From contig NZ_LT607755.1 of the NCBI RefSeq assembly GCF_900090275.1, positions 248,001 to 312,000 of the forward strand: a DNA stretch of 64,000 bases, in the 5' to 3' direction. The notes beneath the pieces are model-generated. The model was not told the DNA's origin. It made no database searches and saw nothing but the letters and a program-made list of their open reading frames with translations. The number at the start of each line of letters is the position of its first letter. Within the stretch, counting starts at the first letter, position 1. The stretch comes from Micromonospora zamorensis (GTDB lineage Bacteria > Actinomycetota > Actinomycetes > Mycobacteriales > Micromonosporaceae). Below, in pieces: positions 56,336 through 64,000 of the stretch. The position numbers were made by a program, and so were the translations under genes.

Positions 56336-59300
56336 CTAAGCAGCGATCGTTCGAGCGGTGGCGTATACGTCGGCGGGTAGGGCGTGGTGGAGCTTCCACA
56401 GGACGCGTATGGGTCGGTCACCGGTGTGCGACTCGTACGTCATGGTGCCGGCGTACAGGTACGGCGGTGCGCCCAGGTCGCGGTCGGCGATCCGGGTTTC
56501 ACGAACGAAGAGGTGCACCGTCGAGCCGCCCGACGTGTAGCGCTGCCCGGTTGCCGACGCCGACGAGGTGGTGCTCTGCGACTCCCACTGGAACAGCGTT
56601 TCGGTGATGGCCCGGTCGGCGTACATGGTGGTGGGGGAGTAGTGCGATTCCGACTTGACCAGGGTGACGAAGAACAGATCGGCCTGGGCGTCGGGCAACC
56701 ACTTCACCCCCTCGCGCAGCGATCCCGGGTTGGTCATCCCGAAGGCGGCGCACGCCTCGTTGCGGCTGTACCGGGCGTGCACCCGCAACGGCACCGCACC
56801 CAGAGCGGCAGTGGGCGTGACCCGGTGGATGCGGTCCCGCAGCACCTCGGCGACCTGGCGCAACTCGGCGCAGCGGGCCGGATCCTTCCAGAGTCGGACC
56901 AGCCGCTCGTCGCTTGTCGCTAGTGGTGCGGTTGGCCCCCAGAGGCTGAAGTGCAGCATGTCCAGCAGTCGGCCGTTCCCCGCGTACACCTGCTGACCTG
57001 GCGCGGGCGGTCCCGCCGCGACCCGGGTCAGCAGCTCCAGCCGGTCGATGTCGTCGGTGTGCAGCATGCGACCGATGGCCCGGCCCAGCTCCCGGTCGTC
57101 CGGGCCGGGCGCAGACGTCTCGATGCCGGCCAGCCGCCGCAGCCCGGTCCAGCCGCCGATGCTGGCCGACCGGTACACGTCCTCGATCTCCAGGCCGGTC
57201 TCGCGGAGGAACGTCGCCAGGCTGACGTCGCCGAGTTGCCGCAGCTCAGACACCAGGCCGGCCTTGGAGGTGGGCAACGCTGATCGCAGGTTGGCGAGCA
57301 CGACCTCCTTCGCCACCCGGTCCAGCTCGACGTGGCAGCCGCTCGGCAGGCTCGGGAAGTCATCGCGCACTGCCTCGGTGATCGCCCGCCGGCTCACCCC
57401 GGTCAGGGCACGCCACCGCAGATCGAAGCGGAAGTTGGCGTGCTGCCCGCCGATGAAGTCGAGCACGGTCAGGCAGGGCTTGTCGTCGTCCAAGCGCAGG
57501 CCACGGCCGAGCTGTTGCAGGAAGATCGTGGCGCTCTCGGTGGGCCGCAGCATCAGGATCGTGTCGACCATCGGGAGGTCGACCCCCTCGTTGAACAGGT
57601 CCACCGTGAAGAGCACCCGCAGCTTGCCGGCCTTGAAGTCCCGCAACAGCCCCGCCCGATCGGTGCCGGCCCGCGAGGTCACCGCCGCCGCCTCGACACC
57701 GTGCTGCTTGAACCAATCCGCCATGAACTCCGCGTGCCCGATGCTCACGCAGAACCCGAGCGCCCGCATCCGCCCGACGTCCACCTTGTCGCTGACCGCT
57801 CGCAGCACCGACCGCGCTCGCGCGTGGTTGCCGGTGTAGAGGCCGTTGAGCTCTGCCAGGTTGTAGCCCTGCCCGCGCTTCCAGGTCACCTGCGACAGGT
57901 CCACGTCGTCGTGCAGCCCGAAATACTGGAACGGAGCCAACAACTGCCGCTCCAACGCCTCCCACAGGTGCAGCTCAACGGCCGCGCGCCCGTCGAACCA
58001 CCGGCGCACGTCGCCGCCGTCGGCCCGGTCGGGGGTCGCCGTCAGGCCCAGGAGTACGCGAGGGCGCAGCCGATCCAACAGCCGCGCGTACGTCGGTGCC
58101 TCCGCGTGGTGGAACTCGTCCACGATCACCATGTCGTACGCCTCGGGGTCGACCTCCCGTCGGTGCAGCGACTGGATGGAGGCGAAGACGTGCTTCCAGC
58201 CGTTCGGCTTCTCGCCTGCCACGAGGGCTTCGCCAAAGCTGCCGTCGCCCATGACTTGCCGGAACGTGGACAGGCTCTGCCGCAGGATCTGCTCCTGATG
58301 AGCGACGAAGAGCAGCGAGTCTGCTCGTCCCGCCTTGTGTAGCCGGCGGTAGTCGAGGGCGGCGACCACCGTCTTGCCGGTGCCGGTCGCCATCACCACG
58401 AGGTTGCGCCAGCGCCCGTGCACCAGCCGCTCGGCGTCCAGGTCGGCAAGGATCTCGGCCTGATACGGGTACGGACGCACGTCCAGGTTCGAGATCCCGT
58501 TCGGCGCATCGTCGCGGCGCTCCCCGCTCAACGCGTGCCGTAGGCGCTCGGCGTCCCTAGCCGCGTCGTACGCCTCGAACGCCGGATCGTTCCAGTAGTC
58601 CTCGAACGTCGCCGTGAACGTGTCGATGACGTGCGGCTGCTCCATGTTCGAGATGCGGACGTTCCACTCCACGCCGTCCACCAGCGCGGTCTTGGACAGG
58701 TTGGACGAGCCGACGTACGCGGTGGTGGTGCCGCTGTTGCGGCGGAACAGCCACGCCTTGGCATGCAGGCGGGTGGTCCTCGTCTCGTACGACACCTTGA
58801 TCTCGGCGCCCAGCTCGGCGAGTCGGTCGAGGGCTCTTTGGTCGGTGGCGCCGAGGTAGGTGGTGGTGATGACGCGGACCTTGCCGCCACGGGCGATCAG
58901 CTCGCGGATGGCTGGCTCGACGATGCGTAGGCCGTACCACTTGATGAACGCGCAGAGCAGGTCGACGCTCTCGGCCGACGCCATCTCGTGGTTGACCTCG
59001 TGGCCGATGTGGGGCTGGTGGCGGCCGTTGACCAGCAGCGCGCCGGTGGAGAGGGGAGTGGTGGGGCGCTGCGGGAAGGCTGGTAGCGCGGGCGGTGTTG
59101 GTGGGGCGGCGATGGCGTGGAGCAGGTGCTTGGCGTCGGTCACCTGGTCCTGTTCGGTCGCTGCCATTGGACTCAGGGCGGCGATGGCCTCGGCGATCTG
59201 GTTCGCCATTGCGATCTGGTGGTGGAGCTTGTCGTCACTGTTGGGAACTGCTTGGAGAGCGCGGGCAGCCAGGGTGGCGATGTGGCGGGCGAGGGTGCGG

Positions 59301-59419
59301 TGAGCGTCGGCGGGGTCGAGTTTGTGGTGTTGGACCAGGGCGGGATCGACGTGCTGGAGGCGGTCGGCCAGCTCGCGGGTGATCAGGTGCTCGTAAAGCC
59401 CCCGCTCAAGATCCGTCAT
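56336..59419 (-). CDS. PLD-like nuclease/SF2 DEAD helicase/DUF3427 protein
   Basis: The 1027-residue protein combines a phospholipase D-like nuclease domain (about residues 130-310, with a single HxK motif in TRLHAKAWLFRRNSG and VGSSNLSKTALVDG) and an SF2 helicase. The helicase has motif I MATGTGKTVVAALD, motif II IVDEFHHAEAPTYARLL, GLTATPDR and motif VI QQLGRGLRLDDDK. A C-terminal DUF3427-type region ends it. Proteins of this layout occur in defence islands and may restrict foreign DNA, but the role is unproven. ATG 59419 gives MTDLERGLYEHLI; the frame upstream lies in AT-rich intergenic sequence. It is divergent from the GHKL operon. Confidence 0.87.
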   Translation of the reverse strand: MTDLERGLYEHLITRELADRLQHVDPALVQHHKLDPADAHRTLARHIATLAARALQAVPNSDDKLHHQIAMANQIAEAIAALSPMAATEQDQVTDAKHLLHAIAAPPTPPALPAFPQRPTTPLSTGALLVNGRHQPHIGHEVNHEMASAESVDLLCAFIKWYGLRIVEPAIRELIARGGKVRVITTTYLGATDQRALDRLAELGAEIKVSYETRTTRLHAKAWLFRRNSGTTTAYVGSSNLSKTALVDGVEWNVRISNMEQPHVIDTFTATFEDYWNDPAFEAYDAARDAERLRHALSGERRDDAPNGISNLDVRPYPYQAEILADLDAERLVHGRWRNLVVMATGTGKTVVAALDYRRLHKAGRADSLLFVAHQEQILRQSLSTFRQVMGDGSFGEALVAGEKPNGWKHVFASIQSLHRREVDPEAYDMVIVDEFHHAEAPTYARLLDRLRPRVLLGLTATPDRADGGDVRRWFDGRAAVELHLWEALERQLLAPFQYFGLHDDVDLSQVTWKRGQGYNLAELNGLYTGNHARARSVLRAVSDKVDVGRMRALGFCVSIGHAEFMADWFKQHGVEAAAVTSRAGTDRAGLLRDFKAGKLRVLFTVDLFNEGVDLPMVDTILMLRPTESATIFLQQLGRGLRLDDDKPCLTVLDFIGGQHANFRFDLRWRALTGVSRRAITEAVRDDFPSLPSGCHVELDRVAKEVVLANLRSALPTSKAGLVSELRQLGDVSLATFLRETGLEIEDVYRSASIGGWTGLRRLAGIETSAPGPDDRELGRAIGRMLHTDDIDRLELLTRVAAGPPAPGQQVYAGNGRLLDMLHFSLWGPTAPLATSDERLVRLWKDPARCAELRQVAEVLRDRIHRVTPTAALGAVPLRVHARYSRNEACAAFGMTNPGSLREGVKWLPDAQADLFFVTLVKSESHYSPTTMYADRAITETLFQWESQSTTSSASATGQRYTSGGSTVHLFVRETRIADRDLGAPPYLYAGTMTYESHTGDRPIRVLWKLHHALPADVYATARTIAA

Positions 59420-59634
59420 CAGCGGACCGTACCTACGGCACAACGATGGAGCAATCCTTGGCTTGTCAGCTTCTCGACAGTGAATTCGAGTGAAGTCAAG
59501 TATGCATCTGGACTGGCAATCGTAAAAGACCTCTGAGTTGGATGCGCGCCTGGTGGCCAAGGCTAGGCGCTGCAGGGCTCCCACTGATGTCCCCCACGAT
59601 GTAGCCTCGAGGGGCTGCTCCGATCCGGCCGGCT

Positions 59635-62145
59635 TTGGCTAGCAGAGTGGTCGCAGGTAGCCCAACATATTACGATCGTCGAGCCAAGAATCCAGCTAGC
59701 AAGGAGGTGGGTCCAGTTACAGGGTTCACCGTTGATACCCACCTACTGCGCGAACTGGGTGAGCTTCTTGTTGGGCGCGACAGCACCGCGCTCCTAGAGC
59801 TAATCAAGAACGCCTATGACGCAGACGCTTCGCAAGTGATTCTTCATGCCGATAAACTCAACTCGGAAGACGCTGTCATCCGGATTGTAGATAATGGCAA
59901 CGGCATGACGTATGACCGCTTCCATAGTGCATTCTTGCGCATTGCCGGGCGCGACAAAGAGGGCGAATTTCGTAGATCGCCCAAGTATGGTCGGCGATAT
60001 ACGGGCCAAAAGGGCATCGGCCGCCTAGCTGCTCATAAACTCGCGTCGACACTCGAGGTTGTAAGTGTGCCCCGTGCAGAGGTCCACGGCGAGGGGAACA
60101 ACTTTGGAGTCTCTGCATTCCTCGACTGGGATGTGATTGAGTCGCAGGCGACGTTAGACGACCTCAAGGGCGGCATTGCAACTGAGGTCGTCGAAAATGC
60201 GGGAGGCGCACGAAATGGCGGCACCTCTGTCGAGCTTGGCCGACTCCGATCGAAATGGAGCAGCAGTCAGCTTGCAACTTTTGTGGGTGAGCTCCGGACG
60301 GCCCAGCCGCCTTCAGCGCTCAGGGATCCAGATTGGCCGCCGGGCGCAATAGTGGGCGAAAGCATCATCCAGAGACCGCTAGTACGGGACGTGAGAGACC
60401 GGAAAGACCCGGGCTTTAACGTCACGTACAGCGGTGACTTAGATGTCGGAGATGACCTGTGGTCACAGGCAGGATCAAATTTTAGATGGCTAATTGAAAT
60501 CGACGGCCTTGGCGAGGCCGTGCGCTACAAAATCTCTCCATTGAAGTCGTATGCACAGCAAGAACCGGAAGCCCGTTCTTATTACTTCGAAAAACTGGAT
60601 CCCGGATCAGAAAGGCCCCGATTCCAGGCCCGCATTTTCACTCATCCGAACTCTTCCACCCGACGAGGGCCACTGGCTGGCTTTGTCCGGTCGAATAGCG
60701 GCGTCCGGGTTTACCTGGAAGGTTTTCGCGTACTGCCCTACGGTGAGCATGGGGATGATTGGCTAGGGATCGACCGGGATTACCGGACCGGTCCGCGATT
60801 CTATGAGATTGATATCGACCAAGACGCCAGTGACGCGTTGGAAGAGGATAAGAAAGAGGCTCTGGCTGCTACTAGCAACCTCGGCTACTTCGGCGCAGTT
60901 TTCCTTACCGAAGACAACAGTGGCGGTTTGAAGAGCCTCGTTAATCGGGAAGGGTTTGTGCCTGACTCGACATTCCAGTCGCTCGTCGACCTTGTCAAAA
61001 CTGGAATCCGTCTTAGTGTCAGGGTCCGGCGGGCGGTGGCAAATCGGGTCGCCGAGCGCGAGCGAGCGCAGGCTGACGCTGACGCAGTTTGTGACGCGGA
61101 GACCGATGCAGCCGATACCCCGACGACCGGCCCGACCGCGTCGCCGCGAATCGTTAAGCCTGAGGAAGAGCAGACGGATGCGCCTGGGAACGGGTGGAGT
61201 TCGGAGGGGCGGGAAGGCAATCCAACCCGCACTTCCGATGCACTGACCCCCGTTGTGGTGCATGTTCGGGCCGAGGCCGTAATTCGCGACGCCCGCACTG
61301 TCGCCCAAAATCTGCGCGGTTCGAATTACCCTGTCGCAGAGTCAATCGAACTTAAGAAGCTGCTCGCGGGATTCCGGGTTGTCGAGACGGAGCTGGAACG
61401 CCTCCAGAGCTTGCAGCCAGACCTGCGTATTCTTGCTAGTGTTGGTTTACAACTTGGCGCATTTGTCCACGACGTCAACGGCATGCTGGGGCAGGCCGGC
61501 ACTGTTCGTCAACTACTTGAGCCTCTTCTGTCAGATCCAGAATTATCAAGGAGCGGAGCTCAGCGGGTAAGAAGAGTTGTAAAAGCACTCGACGAGCTCG
61601 CGCACTCGCTGGCCCGTCAAAGCAGTTACCTCACCGATGTTCTAATAACAGATCCTCGCCGCCGTCGCTCCCGGCAAAAGATAAAGGAGCGGCTGGCGGT
61701 GGTTGAGAGACTGTTGCACAATCAATTAGTGCAGCGCAAAGTCGTCATTGACGATGCGTTGCCCGAGGATCTCCTGTCCCCTCCTATTTTTCCCGCAGAA
61801 CTGGGCGTTCTTCTTACGAATCTCCTAACAAACGCTGTCAAGAATGCGGGTTCACCCGGCAAGATCAGGGTCGAAGGGCGGCAGTTTGGTCGACGAGGGA
61901 TTACGTTGTTAATCCACAACACTGGTGTCGCTGTCGACTTGAGCGAGTCTAATCGTTGGTTCCTCCCCTTTGAAACAACAACAACCGACGTTGACGAAGT
62001 CTTGGGGCAAGGGCTTGGCCTAGGGCTTCCGATTACTAAGGCCCTTGTTGAAGACTACCGCGGTGACATCGACTTCGTCGAACCACCGACTGGCTATGCC
62101 ACGAGTATACGTATAGATCTGCCTGACCCCCAGGAGCGCCGATGA
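59635..62145 (+). CDS. Protein with two GHKL ATPase modules: Hsp90/MORC-like plus histidine kinase-like
   Basis: The 836-residue protein begins with an Hsp90/MutL/MORC-type ATPase (residues about 30-250): N-box LLELIKNAYDADAS, G1 RIVDNGNGM and G2 GQKGIGRLAAHKLAS. After a middle domain and a linker comes a histidine kinase-like part. It has a dimerisation helix with a candidate His (GAFVHDVNGMLGQ) and a second HATPase with TNLLTNAVKNAGS, LIHNTGV and LGQGLGLGLPITKAL. It lies in a 4-bp overlap with the next gene. Start uncertain: TTG 59635 or GTG 59647, no ribosome site. Base composition is AT-richer than the core, so transfer is likely. Not a family I can name. Confidence 0.82.
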   Translation: MASRVVAGSPTYYDRRAKNPASKEVGPVTGFTVDTHLLRELGELLVGRDSTALLELIKNAYDADASQVILHADKLNSEDAVIRIVDNGNGMTYDRFHSAFLRIAGRDKEGEFRRSPKYGRRYTGQKGIGRLAAHKLASTLEVVSVPRAEVHGEGNNFGVSAFLDWDVIESQATLDDLKGGIATEVVENAGGARNGGTSVELGRLRSKWSSSQLATFVGELRTAQPPSALRDPDWPPGAIVGESIIQRPLVRDVRDRKDPGFNVTYSGDLDVGDDLWSQAGSNFRWLIEIDGLGEAVRYKISPLKSYAQQEPEARSYYFEKLDPGSERPRFQARIFTHPNSSTRRGPLAGFVRSNSGVRVYLEGFRVLPYGEHGDDWLGIDRDYRTGPRFYEIDIDQDASDALEEDKKEALAATSNLGYFGAVFLTEDNSGGLKSLVNREGFVPDSTFQSLVDLVKTGIRLSVRVRRAVANRVAERERAQADADAVCDAETDAADTPTTGPTASPRIVKPEEEQTDAPGNGWSSEGREGNPTRTSDALTPVVVHVRAEAVIRDARTVAQNLRGSNYPVAESIELKKLLAGFRVVETELERLQSLQPDLRILASVGLQLGAFVHDVNGMLGQAGTVRQLLEPLLSDPELSRSGAQRVRRVVKALDELAHSLARQSSYLTDVLITDPRRRRSRQKIKERLAVVERLLHNQLVQRKVVIDDALPEDLLSPPIFPAELGVLLTNLLTNAVKNAGSPGKIRVEGRQFGRRGITLLIHNTGVAVDLSESNRWFLPFETTTTDVDEVLGQGLGLGLPITKALVEDYRGDIDFVEPPTGYATSIRIDLPDPQERR

Positions 62146-63398
62146 GCCTACATAACCCGTCTGCTATGCCGGCACATGACGCCGCTCCCCCTCTAGTTCT
62201 CATCATTGATGACGAGGACCAGACGGCTTTCTCTGAGGTGCTGCAGGATCTAGGTGTCGACGCCATGTACTTGCCGCCGGATGAGCTAGAAGAGTCAATC
62301 CTTCGCCAAGCGACAACTGTAGTCGTAGACCAATATCTTGATGACTGGCCAGGCCGCAACCAAGATTCCGTGCCGATCGCCCTCAAGGTCCCTGATGGTC
62401 TAAGCCTAACGTCTGTGCTTAGGTCACGGGTCGAGGGCAGCGGCGATCGGCAAGGCCCGCCACCGAGCGCCGTAGCATTCGTGCTGAGGACAGGTGAGGT
62501 AGATAAGATTGGTGCTGGACTTCCCTCTGCAGCCCGGCAGCATCTACTAGCATCGCAATACAATCTCGAGTGGGTTTTCGACAAGTCAAGCGTGCGTAGT
62601 GGAGAAACGCCTTCGACGGCGCAGCGGGTGGCCGAGTTGGCATTAGCTACCGCAAGGTTGCCAAGCGACTGGAGTGCGGGAACCGGAGATCCAGGACTTA
62701 GATGGCTAGGTCTACCTACGACCGCTTGGGCTGAAGACGCATGCTGGCAGGTAGAACAATGTAGGCCACCACAGCATGTGGTCGCGCAGCGTACTGCGGG
62801 ACGGGCGTGGCTTCGCTGGTTTCTCCAGCGAGTTCTTCCCTATCCGACCTTCCTAATCGATATACAGAAGGTCGCTGTCATGCTCGGAGTAACGGTCGAT
62901 GCCGCAGAGGAGGTTCTCTCCTCTGCGAGCAGGCTTAGCCAGATGATCGGAGCAACCCAATACCAGGGGCCGCTTATGTCTTTCATGGGCAGACGTTGGT
63001 GGCGCGCGGGAGTTAGCTATGTTGTTGAACAGCTTCTAGGTGAGTTCGACCTAGAGGATGACCACGATCTCGAAGCGGTTGCCGCTGCCGCCTCCTCGAT
63101 CCATGGTCGACGGCTTGAAAGGGTCTCTGTCATCGATCCGGTATTGGAAGTCCAGTCTGACTACTCCATAGCTCCTGATCCGATTAGCGCTCTAGACGCG
63201 GTGCGGCTTCAGCCGGACGATTGGCCGCCATATGCCGACGAAGCCTGGGCCGGACGCAGTCGCCTTGATGGCGAGGATCCCGAGCTGTTAGCCCTAGTCG
63301 TCTCATCCGATCGTTGGCGCCTTCATTCATCGGAGCTGAAAGGCGATTCTCTAGGTCAAGAGAATGGGATCGATGCTGCAATGGGAGGTGGTCGATGA
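62142..63398 (+). CDS. Receiver-like domain protein, partner of the GHKL protein
   Basis: The 418-residue protein starts with a response-regulator-like segment: PLVLIIDDEDQTAF (acidic residues 23-26), candidate phospho-Asp63 in TTVVVDQYLDDWP, Thr in FVLRTG and Lys in WVFDKSS. An insertion of about 60 residues separates the last parts, so the fold is divergent. The remaining 250 residues (LRWFLQRVLPYPTFLIDIQKVAVMLGV, FMGRRWWRAGVSYVVEQLL) match nothing I know; no DNA-binding motif is evident. ATG 62142 overlaps the upstream stop by 4 bp, and its stop overlaps the next start by 4 bp. It uses TTA and other rare codons. Confidence 0.75.
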   Translation: MSLHNPSAMPAHDAAPPLVLIIDDEDQTAFSEVLQDLGVDAMYLPPDELEESILRQATTVVVDQYLDDWPGRNQDSVPIALKVPDGLSLTSVLRSRVEGSGDRQGPPPSAVAFVLRTGEVDKIGAGLPSAARQHLLASQYNLEWVFDKSSVRSGETPSTAQRVAELALATARLPSDWSAGTGDPGLRWLGLPTTAWAEDACWQVEQCRPPQHVVAQRTAGRAWLRWFLQRVLPYPTFLIDIQKVAVMLGVTVDAAEEVLSSASRLSQMIGATQYQGPLMSFMGRRWWRAGVSYVVEQLLGEFDLEDDHDLEAVAAAASSIHGRRLERVSVIDPVLEVQSDYSIAPDPISALDAVRLQPDDWPPYADEAWAGRSRLDGEDPELLALVVSSDRWRLHSSELKGDSLGQENGIDAAMGGGR

Positions 63399-64000
63399 TT
63401 AATGACCAAGTCCGTCGCAATTCGCCGGTGGTCACAGAAGACGGGCAGTACGTTGCGGACACCGGGCCCTTACTCTGCTTGGGTCATTCAAAGTCTTTGA
63501 GGGATCATGTCAAGCGTCGATGGGGGCGCAGGACTCATTGGGTCGACTCGGTCCGGCAAGAGTTGGCCCGTCATGCCAAAGGTTACGACGCTAAAGGAAA
63601 AGCAGCTCAGTACTATGGTGGCCCGGCTGCTCGCTGGTTAATCGCTGCCCCGCCCGTCGAGGTGGCAGACACCCCGAAGTTGGATGCCTTGCTTGCTCGA
63701 TTGAAGGAGCTTGAGCTGCAGAAAGCGGCGTTGAAAGGAGTAAGGGCAAAGACCCACCCTAAGGCAAACCTGGGCGAGGCCGAGAGTATTCTTTATGCGC
63801 ATGCCAATGGGCACACACTTCTTGCGCACGATAGGGATGCGAAAAGGGTCGCAAGAGAGGTAGGTGTGCCAGCTGGTACGGTGATTGACCTTGCGAGATG
63901 GTTAGTAGCGCAAGGGGCCAACGTAAACGAGATCGCTCGGTGTATTCTTGATATCCAAGCTGTGGATATTGATCCCGGAGCGCGAATCACCAGTGTTTTA
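63395..64000 (+). CDS. PIN-domain nuclease, N-terminal part (runs off the window)
   Basis: ATG 63395 overlaps the preceding stop by 4 bp; the frame is open for 202 codons to the window edge. The residues fit a PIN ribonuclease: Asp22 in YVADTGPLLCLG, Glu56 in SVRQELARHA, Glu128/Glu130 in NLGEAESILYAHANG, and Asp146/Asp148 in LLAHDRDAKRVAREVG. This resembles the DUF3368-type PIN group. PIN enzymes cut RNA with Mg2+ and are typical toxin or defence effectors. As third gene behind the kinase-like and receiver-like proteins, it may be the effector that they control. Several TTA codons are present. The C-terminus is unseen. Confidence 0.78.
   Translation, partial: MINDQVRRNSPVVTEDGQYVADTGPLLCLGHSKSLRDHVKRRWGRRTHWVDSVRQELARHAKGYDAKGKAAQYYGGPAARWLIAAPPVEVADTPKLDALLARLKELELQKAALKGVRAKTHPKANLGEAESILYAHANGHTLLAHDRDAKRVAREVGVPAGTVIDLARWLVAQGANVNEIARCILDIQAVDIDPGARITSVL

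Follow-up and report, generated by a model that had tools for sequence, protein, structure and literature searches.

The last part of a 64,000-nucleotide stretch of Micromonospora zamorensis DNA (contig NZ_LT607755.1, positions 248,001 to 312,000; the whole stretch is referred to as the window) raises the question of how an operon that joins a kinase-like protein, a receiver protein and a predicted nuclease might work, and which further genes belong to it. Analysis of the open reading frames (ORFs) of this region, which lies in a 7.1-Mb genome represented by a single contig, showed that the three genes, here named K, R and P, are real and consecutive and that each neighbouring pair overlaps by 4 bp, as a preliminary description of the locus had stated. 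Together with M, a methyltransferase gene situated just past the window, K, R and P form a transferable bacterial cassette that resembles an immune or addiction system. The interpretation that we favour, with slightly better than even confidence, is that this mobile M-K-R-P cassette is a restriction-modification (R-M)-like conflict system in which a two-component relay serves as the attacking arm.

The four genes encode: (i) K (59635..62145, forward strand; start codon uncertain), a double-GHKL protein; (ii) R (62142..63398, forward strand), a protein of 418 aa with a receiver domain at approximately residues 15-176 and a conserved C-terminal domain carrying an RRWW motif; (iii) P (63395..64000, forward strand, cut by the window end), a PIN-domain protein whose complete gene (214 aa; L002:8395-9039) ends at window-equivalent position 64039; and (iv) M (window-equivalent 64580-66379, reverse strand), a 599-aa Eco57I-like adenine methyltransferase. 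M matched the Eco57I methylase model at E 1.2e-5 (just over the cut-off), the M.Eco57I C-terminal domain at 1.5e-5 (just under the cut-off) and the PADLOC type II methyltransferase model at 3.5e-42, and its NPPY motif is invariant across 17 aligned M sequences. No C5 cytosine methyltransferase was recognised among the cassette ORFs listed.

Linkage of the four genes

Seventeen distinct loci were distinguished by means of R (the window and L006-L021), comprising two plasmids, 14 loci of named genomes and the window itself. The plasmid homologues of R occur on pCCa of Clavibacter californiensis and in Rhizobium sp. TH2, while the named-genome loci were obtained with two peptide patterns only and are therefore undersampled. 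R was also present in one other of 396 genomes of the phylum, at the same locus as L021; L005, which has an identical R and lies within L021, was left out of the counts. K adjoins R in all 17 loci, and M is present in the unit in every one of them, although in L007 it diverges from K. In each of the 16 uncut loci (L021 is cut by a contig end) R is followed by a third gene, and this gene encodes a PIN protein in 11 loci, all of them actinomycete, and an unrelated protein, named X, in five (Rhizobium, two Myxococcales, an acidobacterium and a Lysobacterales). The association of the three genes in other genomes, the subject of a check set in advance, was thereby confirmed, with varied third genes standing beside the same partners.

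The gene order is M-K-R-P in ten actinomycete PIN loci besides the window and K-R-X-M in L017-L020, and the 4-base overlap between K and R is found in 9 of the 11 PIN loci. Pairwise divergence of M, K, R and P is correlated across 11 loci (Mantel r 0.74-0.95, with at most 1 in 5000 permutations as high). Two further M-K-R-PIN loci were found in other genomes of the genus by the K search, and in Galbitalea soli genes for PglZ and BrxL (BREX-type) lie directly upstream of M-K-R-P (L012:190-4831).

The wider K family was surveyed on plasmids, where three K queries returned 14, 65 and 25 records. The neighbourhoods of 22 plasmid relatives (20 from a 25-record search, one of 41 from Campylobacter, and one from Pantoea) were read over 4.5-9 kb on each side. 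A DNA methyltransferase is encoded in 18 of these neighbourhoods, or in 16 of 20 without L006 and L007, which belong to the window's clade (L006 was called by BLAST and the other 17 by annotation); in a small control, none was annotated in two 50-kb stretches of two such plasmids. Directly after K, a gene of 209-667 aa is present in 19 neighbourhoods, and five of the ten such R proteins tested matched a receiver profile (E<=0.012), one of them (Pantoea) over the cut-off. The third gene encodes an HNH nuclease in two plasmid loci (Deinococcus and Bacteroides) and a metallo-beta-lactamase (MBL) in three (Hymenobacter volaticus, Burkholderia aenigmatica and Pseudanabaena, the last copy being split by an insertion element), and in Halomicrobium a metallophosphoesterase gene is located about 1 kb further on. 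Since the R proteins of the distant C5 methyltransferase, HNH or MBL loci gave no significant match to the R alignment (A4) in hhalign comparisons (probability 0.4-4.7), the superfamily link to these loci rests on K and gene order. The R proteins of L022, L024 and L026 match A4 in the C-terminal domain (probability 71, 50 and 24, respectively; E 3.7e-5 to 8.2e-4); unrelated control proteins gave 0.2-0.4, and the comparison left out R of L025 and L061.

Active sites and a possible phosphorelay

K had been described as a MORC/Hsp90-like ATPase joined to a histidine-kinase-like module, and this architecture holds: the N-terminus matches HATPase_c_3, the C-terminus matches HATPase_c, and the H-box is invariant. 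Residue conservation was counted in a 22-sequence alignment (A8). In the N-terminal ATPase, the GHKL motifs of MORC/paraMORC type (ExxxN, DxGxG and GxKGxG) are intact in all 22 sequences, with Glu55 (59797..59799, forward strand) as the candidate catalytic base of ExxxN (E in 22/22, N59 likewise in 22/22). In the C-terminal module, His612 of the H-box (61468..61470, forward strand), the candidate phospho-accepting residue, is conserved in 22/22 and followed by D in seven sequences and E in 15, and both N-box asparagines (N729 and N733) and the G2 glycines are also present in all 22. The usual Asp of the G1-box is replaced by Asn762 (61918..61920, forward strand); Asn occupies this position in 17/17 sequences of the window's clade and Asp in the five outside it, which makes the residue a clade marker.

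Because this Asn extends across the window's clade, the autokinase activity of K may be altered or lost, and the substitution may reflect a different nucleotide choice or an ATP-gated mechanism. Under the latter, K would clamp DNA as a MORC-like ATPase, its C-terminal module having lost the ability to phosphorylate, and R would scaffold K to the effector. Such a switch would agree with the intact N-terminal motifs and with the resemblance of the K N-terminus to BbrUII/HgiDII restriction enzymes, whose model it matches at E 1.4e-21, far below the cut-off; apart from the GHKL part of restriction endonuclease models, no restriction endonuclease domain was matched in K, R or P. The invariance of His612, the N-box and the G2 glycines, together with the receiver site of R described below, would be hard to explain without phosphate transfer, and we consider a switch of this kind rather unlikely.

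K was detected at E<=1e-40 in 5 of 121 genomes of the genus, including that of the window. The full-length K profile gave matches in 220 of 396 genomes, from which no rate was derived, as most of those listed cover just the C-terminal part. Positions 1462-2571 of MT838277.1, a 5.5-kb unannotated phage record, encode a protein related to the N-terminal half of K (25% over 47% of K).

The predicted receiver fold of R, proposed earlier, was borne out by structural comparison, and the active site is complete: the acidic pair, the candidate phosphorylated residue Asp63 (62328..62330, forward strand), Thr or Ser at position 117, and Lys are each conserved in 15/15 sequences. No homologue of R was found in a phage collection, nor in viral contigs, the latter searched with two short patterns only.

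The structure model of P, together with Foldseek and VIA matches to PIN/VapC proteins, points to a PIN fold, in agreement with the original assignment. The acidic site includes Asp22 (63458..63460, forward strand; D in 10/10), the first acidic residue, and Glu128 of the GE motif (63776..63778, forward strand; E in 10/10). The structural matches listed include VapC toxins, RNA-free RNase P and RNA-decay PIN proteins. With P as the sole query no relative was found in the named-genome contigs; the PIN protein of L010, which was missed by BLAST and placed through the ORF list and alignment, reads DAGP in place of DTGP.

The PIN/VapC fold would also suit an addiction module, in which R or K-R restrains P as a VapC-like toxin, the cassette mainly maintains itself or its element, and M takes part in post-segregational killing as in type II R-M systems. 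The cassette comes and goes at one chromosomal site and has relatives on plasmids, as expected under this explanation. No VapB-like small antitoxin gene was seen beside P, whose neighbours among the listed ORFs of at least 60 aa are R and a convergent gene of 168 aa. Moreover, kinase and receiver are retained next to third genes that vary (PIN or X, and in distant relatives HNH or MBL), so that a sensor-effector system fits better; we regard addiction as improbable as the main function, the two explanations being compatible.

A further alternative, to which we assign a very low probability, is that P is itself the restriction endonuclease, its PIN domain cutting unmethylated DNA directly and K-R acting only as a license. 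PIN folds include DNA-cutting nucleases, and both the methyltransferase in all 17 loci and the HNH gene that takes the position of P in two distant loci would be in keeping with this role. The VapC, RNase P and RNA-decay proteins among the listed matches of P speak for another substrate, with the reservation that the fold alone does not fix it.

Chromosomal site and variation of third genes

Comparison with relatives bearing the neighbouring PLD-helicase gene revealed 7347 bp of extra DNA (59421-66767; L002:4421-11767), which runs past the window end. At the corresponding site, relatives in the genus lack the part inside the window (59421..64000, no strand assigned) or have other DNA in its place, and the GC content of the cassette is 56.9%, compared with 69.1% for the flanks, which confirms the AT-richness noted for the operon. 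The left boundary is identical in five relatives and corresponds to the probable start of the helicase gene.

In 31 of 61 genomes of the genus, that of the window included, a match covers at least 1850 of the 2001 bases of the helicase DNA. Twenty-five of the 30 helicase-bearing relatives were compared (G415, G435, G440, G442 and G451 were left out), and both flanks were visible in 21. At the cassette site these 21 relatives carry less than 300 bp (five), a Mrr-like type IV restriction gene (five: L088, L102 (partial), L103, L108 and L109), other cargo of 1.9-9.6 kb (ten: L095, L101, L104-L107 and L111-L114) or a K-R-MBL-M unit (one). The other cargo of the ten may include further defence genes. 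Dropped from the survey were L091 and L092, which contain the tested L008 and L009 stretches, and L100, with a short Mrr-like match and without the right flank.

The kinase of the K-R-MBL-M unit (L087, 4797-14599) is of the double-GHKL kind; the receiver has 235 aa and matches Response_reg at E 0.0016, under the cut-off of that model, and the other two products are a metallo-beta-lactamase and an Eco57I methyltransferase. One chromosomal slot thus holds the PIN version in one species and the MBL version in another. The kinase of L087 shares 26% identity with K of the window over 365 residues. At such a distance between the kinases, the two versions reflect the substitution of one whole unit for a distant relative of it, and more than the effector gene was exchanged. 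The MBL proteins of L059, L063 and L087 share an H-S/A-D-x-D-H motif.

X is a protein of 235-254 aa found in L007 and L017-L020, all non-actinomycete; neither Pfam families nor PDB sequences gave a match to it. Its assignment to the PIN proteins or to the kin of other third genes was rejected, as hhalign of A6 against A5 and three E proteins gave probabilities of 0.1-0.4. The X proteins of L007 and L017 are 22% identical, and that of L007 was joined to the family on a BLAST E of 1.5e-5.

In the methylation-referenced switch that we favour, probably a phosphorelay, M would mark the host's own DNA, and K would bind DNA via its MORC-like N-terminal ATPase and sense unmarked or abnormal (phage or plasmid) DNA. 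Sensing would alter the C-terminal module of K, leading to autophosphorylation of His612 and transfer of the phosphate to Asp63 of R; phosphorylated R, acting via its RRWW C-terminal domain, would then release or activate P, which would cut RNA and thereby stop growth or phage production. Phosphotransfer is favoured because both halves of the phosphorelay site are conserved, and the G1-box Asn calls for caution. A defensive purpose is suggested by the slot common to Mrr genes, by the BREX-type neighbours in Galbitalea and by the R-M link. The co-occurrence and predicted folds on which the earlier two-component-type defence interpretation depended stand; its free-standing character does not, since the methyltransferase belongs to the unit and the system is therefore R-M-linked.

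Several points, the clade-wide G1-box Asn among them, weigh against this relay. M of the window is convergent to K-R-P and outside its transcript, and in 4 of the 22 plasmid neighbourhoods a methyltransferase is missing from the annotation. The proposed coupling of R to P is suggested solely by gene order and co-divergence, and shared host ancestry contributes to the correlated divergence of M, K, R and P. RNA as the target of P is suggested solely by the PIN structures among its matches, and DNA is possible. Finally, as 10 of the 21 relatives carry other cargo, the site may not be a defence hotspot as such.

A broader proposal, which we put forward more tentatively, is that these units form a distinct R-M class in which restriction falls to a cytoplasmic two-component relay in place of an endonuclease that binds the methylated site. 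A MORC-like kinase would read methylation, and a receiver with an effector-docking domain would fire an interchangeable PIN RNase, MBL, HNH nuclease or X, the effectors being swapped as modules and versions succeeding one another even at one chromosomal site. If true, self-marking by DNA methylation and a histidine-aspartate phosphorelay would be joined in one portable immune unit, which would account for a set of genes annotated as "sensor histidine kinase" and "response regulator" that lie next to methyltransferases in bacteria and in an archaeon.

Two neighbouring genes were also considered. The PLD-helicase gene (56336-59584, reverse strand) encodes a protein with DUF3427 that matches the PADLOC type IV restriction model (residues 168-1081, E 1.4e-272); its real start is probably an ATG at about 59419, so that the ORF as listed probably opens with 55 noncoding codons. 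The preliminary description had noted the operon's position beside it, as in defence islands. Its membership in the system was rejected: it is a separate gene, relatives that lack the cassette carry it, and its probable start marks the cassette boundary. For about 9 kb around L006 and L007, the annotation lists no PLD-helicase. The 168-aa gene (window-equivalent 64043-64549; L002:9043-9549; reverse strand) lies between P and M, convergent with P, and a BLAST comparison with the other loci that were read turned up no further copy. An EVE/PUA-type fold was suspected for its product by eye only, without a Pfam match or a notable PDB match.

Relation to known systems

Phage defence through two-component signalling is represented by Detocs, which, to our knowledge, has no methyltransferase and a sensor different from K. 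A PADLOC scan gave no Detocs match for the window proteins, in a library whose inclusion of Detocs was not checked. P shares the fold and acidic site of the VapC/PIN RNases; it differs from VapC in its larger size, in having no VapB-like partner seen beside it and in its third position in a kinase-receiver operon.

MORC and paraMORC GHKL ATPases were described from R-M loci among diverse helicases and nucleases, including HNH (Iyer, Abhiman and Aravind, 2008; PMC2292703), and share with K an N-terminal GHKL ATPase in an R-M context; the words "receiver", "phosphorelay" and "two-component" have 0 occurrences in that text. Another line of precedent, for the idea of an RNA-cutting arm, comes from HEPN domains of the Ymh family, effector domains of an RNase superfamily that are fused to paraMORC ATPases in an R-M context and for which PrrC/RloC-like action was proposed (2013; PMC3710099). 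In these proteins the effector is fused to the ATPase, and the passage concerned mentions no kinase module, receiver or PIN domain. GHKL-Shedu (VcSduA, paraMORC3-like), whose anti-phage activity was shown (PMC12137116), contains a GHKL ATPase module; it is unlike the cassette in being a single protein with a Shedu (DUF4263) nuclease, and no receiver or methyltransferase appears in the passages on it.

The nearest described relatives are the two-component-like HEF_HK (PF19191)/Response_reg_2 (PF19192) pairs, which passages of Bellieny-Rabelo, Pretorius and Moleleki (2021; PMC8011034) place near R-M genes and relate to paraMORC. Their network neighbours, according to the same passages, are mainly C5 methyltransferases, and also N6/N4-methyltransferases, HNH, Vsr and other nucleases. 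Common to these pairs, as presented there, and the cassette is a protein combining HATPase_c_3, a histidine-kinase-like part and HATPase_c, encoded next to a receiver-like protein in an R-M context. Judged by those passages, the cassette differs in its Eco57I-like methyltransferase (17/17 loci) in place of C5 and in the separate PIN or X gene after R; a PIN domain was not found named in the text passages on "pin". The N6/N4-methyltransferases of the published network and the HEPN-paraMORC precedent also tell a little against both the favoured and the broader reading.

At the level of protein families, PF19191 was not matched at E<=1 by K of the window, L008 or L017, nor was it matched by K of L062, L070, L087 or L026; in the same library it was matched by K of Pantoea (7.1e-6, over the cut-off) and Paraburkholderia (0.0079, under the cut-off). 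PF19192 likewise found no match at E<=1 in R of the window, and R of Pantoea (3.8e-19) was the sole match among ten distant R proteins tested; a genome search with PF19192 gave 0/198 genomes, and 0/14 control genomes likewise, so that it carries no weight as evidence of absence. Assignment of R to Response_reg_2 was rejected, given the missing Pfam match and an hhalign probability of 1.3 for A4 against R of Pantoea. That the window K and R match neither family is a weak difference from the published pairs, since K of L062 and L070, both C5-linked, also fails PF19191.

The theme of a sensor or kinase with a receiver and R-M genes is already published (PMC8011034), while a branch with exchangeable PIN or MBL effectors behind the receiver was not found described in a limited search, with preprints and most subscription papers outside it. 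If the relay proposed here is true, it would provide a role for a published family pair for which the abstract of that paper names no tested function, and it would make the action of MORC-like ATPases in R-M testable in a single operon with named residues and exchangeable effectors.

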